Source: Sulfurimonas sp. HSL3-7 (GTDB lineage Bacteria; Campylobacterota; Campylobacteria; Campylobacterales; Sulfurimonadaceae). From it: 64,000 bases of DNA. Position numbers and translations under genes: made by a program. This document shows positions 58,102 through 59,024 of this stretch, in pieces. The notes under the pieces are model-generated. The model was not told the origin of the DNA. It did no database searches and was given only the letters and a program-made list of their open reading frames with translations. The stretch lies in contig NZ_CP147919.1 in NCBI RefSeq assembly GCF_039645985.1, forward strand, positions 1,612,001 through 1,676,000, read 5' to 3'. Position 1 is the stretch's first letter, and each line of letters opens with the position of its first letter.

Positions 58102-58178
58102 CGCGGAATAGAGCAGTTCGGTAGCTCGTCGGGCTCATAACCCGAAGGTCACAGGTTCAAATCCTGTTTCCGCAACCA
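58102..58178 (+). tRNA. Initiator tRNA-fMet (CAT), copy 1
   Basis: 77 nt with encoded CCA. The acceptor stem starts with C1 mismatched to A72 and the anticodon stem has three G-C pairs (GGGCTCATAACCC), both hallmarks of initiator tRNA. Anticodon CAT. Confidence 0.96.
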
Positions 58179-58191
58179 ATCTACTACATAT

Positions 58192-58266
58192 TGGGGTATC
58201 GCCAAGCGGTAAGGCCTCGGTTTTTGGTACCGATATTCGGGGGTTCGAATCCCTCTACCCCATCCA
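58192..58266 (+). tRNA. tRNA-Gln (anticodon TTG)
   Basis: 75 nt. Acceptor TGGGGTA pairs with TACCCCA, anticodon loop TTTTGGT gives TTG, T loop GGTTCGAATCC, and CCA is encoded. It lies 13 bases after the fMet gene in the same transcript. Confidence 0.95.
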
Positions 58267-58450
58267 CTTTTATCTATCTTTCTCAAGATTTTTAAATTTT
58301 ATTGATTTTCGTCTTAAGCAAGGCAGTTGAAACTGAGGAATACATCAGCTATCCGAAAGAACAGCTAACGCAGACAAGTGTTAAAACAAAGTCACAGTGA
58401 AGCACTAAATGCCGAATCGTGATAAGGCAAAAAGCAAAAAAATCAAATGG

Positions 58451-58527
58451 CGCGGAATAGAGCAGTTCGGTAGCTCGTCGGGCTCATAACCCGAAGGTCA
58501 CAGGTTCAAATCCTGTTTCCGCAACCA
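58451..58527 (+). tRNA. Initiator tRNA-fMet (CAT), copy 2
   Basis: Identical over all 77 bases to the copy at 58102-58178, including the C1-A72 mismatch. No separate promoter is visible in the 184 bases after tRNA-Gln, so it is probably co-transcribed. Its 3' end opens a tandem array of truncated copies. Confidence 0.95.
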
Positions 58528-59024
58528 ATCCTTCAATACAATTCTCATACAAATACTTTATAAACTCAAAAACTCCACCTGCGACTAAAGTCACCAGCCA
58601 TGATGATGCTTCGCATATCATCATGTCGCGTCGCCTAAAAAAGCCAAGCAGTTGACTTTTTATTAACGGCTTTTGCGGTTCAAATCCTGTTTCCGCAACC
58701 AATCCTTCAATACAATTCTCATACAAATACTTTATAAACTCAAAAACTCCACCTGCGACTAAAGTCACCAGCCATGATGATGCTTCGCATATCATCATGT
58801 CGCGTCGCCTAAAAAAGCCAAGCAGTTGACTTTTTATTAACGGCTTTTGCGGTTCAAATCCTGTTTCCGCAACCAATCCTTCAATACAATTCTCATACAA
58901 ATACTTTATAAACTCAAAAACTCCACCTGCGACTAAAGTCACCAGCCATGATGATGCTTCGCATATCATCATGTCGCGTCGCCTAAAAAAGCAAAGCAGC
59001 TGACTTTTTATTAACAGCTTTGAA
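58503..59024 (+). repeat. Three tandem 174-bp repeats each starting with the 3' end of tRNA-fMet
   Basis: Units begin at 58503, 58677 and 58851, exactly 174 bases apart. Each starts with the last 25 bases of tRNA-fMet (T-loop half, acceptor and CCA) and continues with the same 149 bases; unit 3 shows a few changes near its end, and a fourth tRNA end at 59025 is degraded. Only the first unit is attached to a full tRNA. The gap 58528-59165 holds nothing else that I can identify. A minus-strand frame across it is an artefact of the repeats. Confidence 0.88.

Follow-up and report, generated by a model that had tools for sequence, protein, structure and literature searches.

With reference to tandem repeats that carry pieces of tRNA genes, the closest described system is the tyrT-tyrV operon of Escherichia coli, and in the classic work on its RtT RNA (Rfam RF00391) the RNA is said to be released during tRNA processing. 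The tyrT repeats had looked like a curiosity of one operon, and among the literature matches listed we noticed no tyrT-like array outside the enterobacteria. Two other kinds of system also come close. Where an island has integrated at the 3' end of a tRNA gene, part of the tRNA is found again as a direct repeat (PMC9897764), and CGTC-tagged REP elements, which are dispersed palindromes without a dedicated transposase, are reported in Sulfurovum (PMC3733652).

In this study, a window of 64,000 nucleotides of the chromosome of Sulfurimonas sp. HSL3-7 (NZ_CP147919.1) was investigated, in which two tRNA-fMet genes with a tRNA-Gln gene between them lead into an array of 174-bp units. On balance, we lean towards the reading that this array, RtT-like in form, arose by local tandem amplification of the tRNA-fMet tail, its trailer and a dispersed double-hairpin module. 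The features concerned are the following.

58036-58064, plus strand: sigma-70-like promoter TTGACA-17-TATAAT, 12/12 (promoter scan)
58102-58178, plus strand: initiator tRNA-fMet, copy 1 (ARAGORN; Rfam tRNA model)
58192-58266, plus strand: tRNA-Gln(TTG) (ARAGORN; Rfam tRNA model)
58287-58398, plus strand: conserved element between tRNA genes (model R1), not part of the array
58451-58527, plus strand: initiator tRNA-fMet, copy 2, its last 25 nt being the opening of unit 1 (ARAGORN; Rfam)
58484-58972, minus strand: antisense reading frame of 162 aa, open across the units, probably no gene
58503-58676, plus strand: unit 1, 174 nt, made of tRNA end, AT-rich trailer and palindrome module
58587-58698, plus strand: module match (model R2) in unit 1, 85.4 bits, entering the next tRNA end; this copy is among the sequences used to build R2
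58677-58850, plus strand: unit 2, identical to unit 1
58761-58872, plus strand: module match (R2) in unit 2, 85.4 bits
58851-59024, plus strand: unit 3, with 6 differences within its last 32 nt
58935-59046, plus strand: module match (R2) in unit 3, 57.5 bits, with a decayed hairpin
59027-59048, plus strand: decayed fourth tRNA-fMet 3' end (shuffle test)

A first-pass annotation of this DNA had described units of 174 bp, each opening with the 25 nt that end tRNA-fMet, and this was borne out both by TRF (period 174, 3.0 copies, 99% match, score 1017) and by alignment of the units. At all three unit starts (58503, 58677 and 58851) the first 28 nt are alike, 25 of them being the tRNA-fMet 3' end, and the start of unit 1 sits within the intact second tRNA-fMet. 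Units 1 and 2 show zero differences over 174 nt, so that the array copies look young, and since the six changes of unit 3 are confined to the distal edge of the array, a recent homogenisation is suggested. The decayed tRNA-fMet end at 59027-59048 obtained a local score of 28, reached by 0/2000 shuffles; because this fourth end closes the array, the count is three units and a stub. In the whole genome, the exact tail pattern was detected only at the three intact fMet genes, the third of which lies at 129031 in another fMet-Gln pair, and at two extra unit starts. Four promoter-like sites were found against 2.8 expected in shuffles, the one at 58036 alone reaching 12/12, and a 12/12 site also stands upstream of the Gln-fMet pair of the relative G016. 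The terminator scan disclosed no intrinsic terminator in the array or in loci L004 and L192, though the inner hairpin had been expected to score. The antisense frame runs uninterrupted through the units because 174 = 3 x 58; as a coding repeat, comparable to the tpr annotated in the E. coli array, it was rejected as an effect of the period and of the antisense tRNA. It showed no Pfam family over the cut-off, and its PHROGs matches were weak (best 5e-8, with no stretch passing alone).

Within each unit, the 25 nt of the tRNA 3' end are followed by some 60 nt of AT-rich trailer with a GC of 0.32 and then by a module some 90 nt long (GC 0.43). The module end also matches several other sites of the same chromosome, and the unit minus its tRNA end has matches in 16/60 genomes, the window's own being counted, mostly via the same part of the module. 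Copies were collected around the loop A(A/G)GCAG(C/T)T from loci L001-L054 and L175-L201 on condition of at least nine pairs around the loop, under which 31 distinct dispersed sites were obtained; 30 copies entered the first alignment and 28 the alignment A2, the omitted sites being L042 site 45 (contig start), L042 97 and L045 1412. A two-hairpin structure derived from one member only leaves 92.6% of the cells of A2 paired, with 17/22 pairs changing on both sides, and its covariation on the 28 copies is 0.461, as against 0.158 when shuffled (0/500 reach it); sliding the structure gave no value above 0.087. Because the copies were chosen for a stem around the loop, their selection favours the inner helix, and the remaining two helices had no part in that selection.

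At loci L005, L007 and L042 the dispersed module stands in close head-to-tail pairs with two outer-stem types. One copy at each of these three loci runs on as ...GCGGTTYCGACCC and the array has ...GCGGTTCAAATCC, GGTT being common to both; since the dispersed copies share GGTT with the array, GGTT could seed the junction. The module resembles the CGTC REP elements (PMC3733652) in being a dispersed palindrome with no transposase link. It differs in having two hairpins, and CGTC, TGTC or CCTC stands near hairpin 1 in 10/28 copies, with 0/4 among the copies linked to fMet.

Comparatively, the E. coli tyrT-tyrV operon shares with the window two identical tRNA genes, three units (178 versus 174 bp) and a fourth tRNA end. 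In MG1655 the tail of tyrT and the free tail of the spacer are 175 bp apart, and in the tyrV array, which holds three units and a fourth tail, the tails follow one another at 178, 178 and 178 bp. The tyr unit is likewise made of a tRNA 3' end, an AT-richer trailer and a palindromic module that reaches up to the next tRNA end, so that in both systems a tRNA gene is followed by tandem units of about 175-180 bp that each include the tRNA 3' end, the window's units measuring 174 bp. The two differ in the tRNA and in the length of its end, which is 19 nt of tRNA-Tyr in E. coli and 25 nt of tRNA-fMet in the window. RF00391 recovers the four tyr copies (positive control L133: 4) and has no window match at the gathering score, nor at E <=5 over 57930-59180. 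Model R2 in turn gave no match in seven E. coli loci, and therefore the two modules are not demonstrably related. An arm complementary to the tRNA tail, a feature seen in E. coli here and not part of an RtT definition, is 8, 10 and 8 nt long in three of the E. coli units (as long in 20, 0 and 6 of 300 shuffles, respectively) and 4 nt in the fourth; in 4/4 Sulfurimonadaceae units it amounts to only 4-5 nt, which is chance level. As far as sequence comparison goes, the window array is RtT-like in layout, and it is no RtT member by sequence or by complementary arm.

The seven MG1655 loci contain 28 tRNA genes by ARAGORN, one of them a false antisense call (L222). Free tails (last 19 nt, at most two mismatches) were detected behind both Tyr genes and behind Arg genes of the argV-argQ cluster, and none in these loci behind argX or behind the Met, Leu, Gly, Gln, His, Pro and Ser genes. 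If tail distances of at least 256 nt are read as units of the neighbouring gene, argV, argZ and argQ have a unit of their own and argY has none. As in the window, a free tRNA-Arg end (that of argQ with one mismatch) follows directly after a palindromic module; in contrast to it, argV-argQ is not tandem, has one unit at three of its four genes and gives no RF00391 match. The tyr and arg modules are mutually alignable and each halts at its own cognate tail, the family model recovering the tyr copies but none of the arg copies. Palindrome module and cognate tail thus go together in E. coli as well. We also observed in L222 (MG1655 2815500-2820500) free tRNA-Arg 3' ends behind palindromic modules that RtT leaves unmatched at the gathering score.

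For the distribution of such units among relatives, 228 genomes of the family were surveyed with a tRNA tail pattern and with a tail plus anticodon-arm pattern, the two tables being compared by eye. The tail is present in 130 of the 228, and the other 98, having no tail match, are not assessable. Tails outnumber tail-plus-arm matches in 12/228 genomes. Four of these carry the module (the window's genome, G060, G016 and G250), in G084 and G242 a truncated tail stands without the module, G069, G138 and G223 are cut by a contig end, G096 and G098 have whole genes with a diverged anticodon stem, and G137 has a whole gene disturbed by N. The four module genomes represent three genera, with G016 and G250 in one. 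Behind tRNA-fMet in G060, G016 and G250 stands a one-unit form, with tail-to-tail distances of 175, 186 and 187 bp, respectively; its free tail directly abuts the module end, and the two tRNA ends enclose no island. Counted from the tRNA, the distance to the loop is 119-131 nt and that to the tail copy 150-163 nt in all four genomes.

A free tail within 600 bp downstream was noticed in 5 of 53 distinct fMet genes, one of them being the window's first fMet with the same array, and 4/53 had less than 150 bp of downstream sequence and were unable to show a tail. Among 182 distinct non-E. coli tRNA genes, a biased set, a free 3'-end copy was found only at the fMet genes of the four genomes. The exact module-plus-T-arm motif occurs in 3/398 sampled genomes of the order (the window's genome, G016 and G250, with G060 outside the sample), and none of the 398 shows it behind any other tRNA. 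Over 76 loci, nearly all picked for tRNA genes or ribBA, model R2 recovered the known arrays of the window's genome and G016; its one further match is weak and lies 221 bp past tRNA-Asp in L169, where no free tRNA tail was found. The trailer is duplicated with the tRNA end over 50/52 nt in G016 and 53/53 nt in G250, and a diverged copy is recognizable in G060 (score 52 versus a maximum of 38 in 1000 shuffles); since the trailer was copied along with the tRNA end, these cases point to duplication of a segment and not to insertion alone. In the window, a trailer copy after the fourth tRNA end is not detectable (score 14, shuffle mean 13.1), so that the window shows no second flank; this result speaks against a simple common history.

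With regard to the history of the locus, G007 and G001 of the same genus have tRNA-Gln, the spacer and tRNA-fMet with the array absent; the G007 locus leads on to the same downstream protein gene as in the window, and that of G001 was followed for 453 bp only. The second tRNA-fMet after tRNA-Gln had earlier been read as a sign of a previous duplication in the same place. Its identity with the first holds over all 77 nt. As fMet-Gln-fMet or Gln-fMet-fMet also occurs in G116, G121, G135, G020, G018, G013 and G242, a second fMet near tRNA-Gln is found in several relatives, and no special event is needed for the window's extra gene. A tRNA-fMet beside ribBA was seen in many of the family genomes fetched.

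The first-pass annotation had further proposed that the repeats were either attachment-site scars of an integrating element or products of slippage at the tRNA end; slippage or local duplication agrees with our data and an island scar agrees less well. The scar reading deserved a fair test because tRNA-fMet does host an island in G242, where 6.8 kb (L227 1279-8174, G242:C4) with two tyrosine integrases (Phage_integrase) and an IS21-type pair lie inside 97-bp direct repeats composed of the tRNA 3' part and about 50 bp of trailer. On this reading, an element would have used the tRNA-fMet 3'-end core in the window and been lost down to about 150 bp, and the attL/attR repeats would then have amplified what was left. 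In G016 and G250 the direct repeat likewise spans tRNA end and trailer, and a further truncated fMet end stands in G084, where the 3,670 bases fetched contain no called tRNA. The window also shares the partial tRNA direct repeat with the islands at tRNA 3' ends (PMC9897764), and differs from them in that no kilobase element lies between the ends and that no integrase or mobile gene was detected among the 8 neighbouring proteins tested (54696-62025). Homologous modules at nearly equal spacing in three genera are contrary to the scar reading too, as are the absence of any window module match within the G242 island and the fact that the E. coli arrays share the form. The annotation had also proposed to compare relatives for islands at tRNA-fMet and to look elsewhere for an integrase with this core. 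The three relatives contain their one unit with no island between the tRNA ends, the exact 25-nt tail has no match in IMG/VR, and blastn of the array against the phage and plasmid collections gave no match. Since a unit of the same kind thus stands in three relatives without an island, what was found is therefore largely what the annotation itself had named as evidence against scars. We regard this origin as unlikely and retain it because the long direct repeat of G242 resembles the tail-plus-trailer repeats of G016 and G250; the array looks like a local repeat rather than the scar of a large inserted element.

Mobility of the module itself, as a small element inserting into or beside the tRNA T-arm, would agree with its dispersal in many places and with the 42/44 nt that its first part shares between the window's genome and G060, despite differing trailers and downstream reading frames. 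We nevertheless hold it improbable: the exact motif joins the T-arm only at tRNA-fMet in the few order genomes named above, the tRNA genes of the biased set have free ends only at fMet, and a target duplication would rarely be as long as the 77-78 nt of tail and trailer that are repeated in G016 and G250. Mobilisation by RAYT was rejected, as the 19 Y1_Tnp places, found in 9 of 15 genomes, show 0/19 with a module within 1.5 kb or up to the contig end, and the unit-bearing G016 and G250 have no Y1 match. That copy number or junctions are an assembly artefact is most improbable. The identity of units 1 and 2 is a classic trap, yet the genome is one contig of 2,872,400 bp that contains a 312-bp repeat of 51 copies, junctions of the same kind occur in other genomes, and unit 3 has its own differences.

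Returning to local tandem amplification, the anatomy and the relatives suggest that a module lay downstream of tRNA-fMet and that the segment from T-arm to module was then duplicated, the duplication perhaps being seeded where the GGTT of the module meets the GGTTC of the T-arm. Unequal exchange or slippage could then have produced the three near-identical units of the window, with the decayed tRNA end at the distal border as an older remainder. Module and tail may have been joined before the array copies arose, because the first part of the module is so alike in the window's genome and G060; this likeness also fits a moving module. It further speaks against plain tandem duplication that the last tRNA end of all four arrays has no module behind it, so that a later loss is needed. 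The empty terminator scan of the array and the absence of the complementary arm from the Sulfurimonadaceae units weigh on the same side. The array would be transcribed from the promoter at 58036 as a long 3' trailer of the fMet-Gln-fMet operon, and tRNA maturation would cut this trailer off as a hairpin-rich RNA, much as with RtT in E. coli; the hairpins of the trailer may act as 3' stabilisers or weak stops. Any RNA function of the array is putative, and a neutral repeat is compatible with all the data.

The same composite layout appears here with a different palindrome, a different tRNA and in a different phylum from E. coli, and with a one-unit form in three more genomes, which points to a recurrent pattern open to search and test. 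We put forward, with considerable doubt, a general class of palindromic modules repeatedly joined to a 3' fragment of the upstream tRNA gene, whichever tRNA that is, with Tyr and Arg in E. coli (one module family) and fMet in Sulfurimonadaceae (another) as members. As causes, hairpin and T-arm might together promote template switching, or the trailer RNA might aid tRNA maturation or dosage control. Among the literature matches listed, no description of such a class was noticed. The questions raised are whether a palindrome beside a tRNA drives duplication of its tail and whether the trailer RNA acts.

The inter-tRNA element at 58287-58398 perhaps merits closer attention than the array. When 60 relatives were searched over their whole genomes with model R1, for which 8 sequences had been used, 37 matches at E <=0.01 were obtained in 17 genomes. 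The 16 best (E <=1.2e-9, the model's own sequences included) all adjoin tRNA genes; of the 21 weaker ones, which may be chance, those inspected lie on the other strand beside tRNAs or away from tRNAs. In 49 chosen loci, mostly tRNA-bearing, there were 28 strong matches and one weak match, forming 22 distinct rows. In every checked case with an uncut contig the element is followed by tRNA-fMet or tRNA-Val, and the preceding tRNA is Gln, Leu, Asp, Glu or Lys. Covariation is 0.260 versus 0.106 when shuffled (0/500), on an alignment fitted to the model, and the folding energy in the window (z 1.08), taken alone, does not stand out. When the genome collection was scanned with a pattern, 11 stretches titled Sulfurimonas, Helicobacteraceae, Arcobacter or Campylobacterales were obtained, with tRNA genes on 11/11. 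The element is also found, in different tRNA clusters, in L086, L117, L122, L131, L144, L152 and L164, its presence varies by genome, and it is absent from the Leu-fMet spacers of the window's genome (22 bp) and G006 (7 bp). Rfam gave no relatives at E <=5 beyond chance-looking ones, and the viral, phage and plasmid searches gave no links. From its sequence and setting, the element is a candidate for a non-coding RNA or for an element involved in the processing of tRNA operons.

Elsewhere in the window, a frame of about 35 codons follows a promoter-like site at 59167-59274, with a similar frame in the same place in G007. The 312-bp tandem repeat of 51 copies (99% match) occupies 27703-43598 and perhaps encodes a giant repeat protein.
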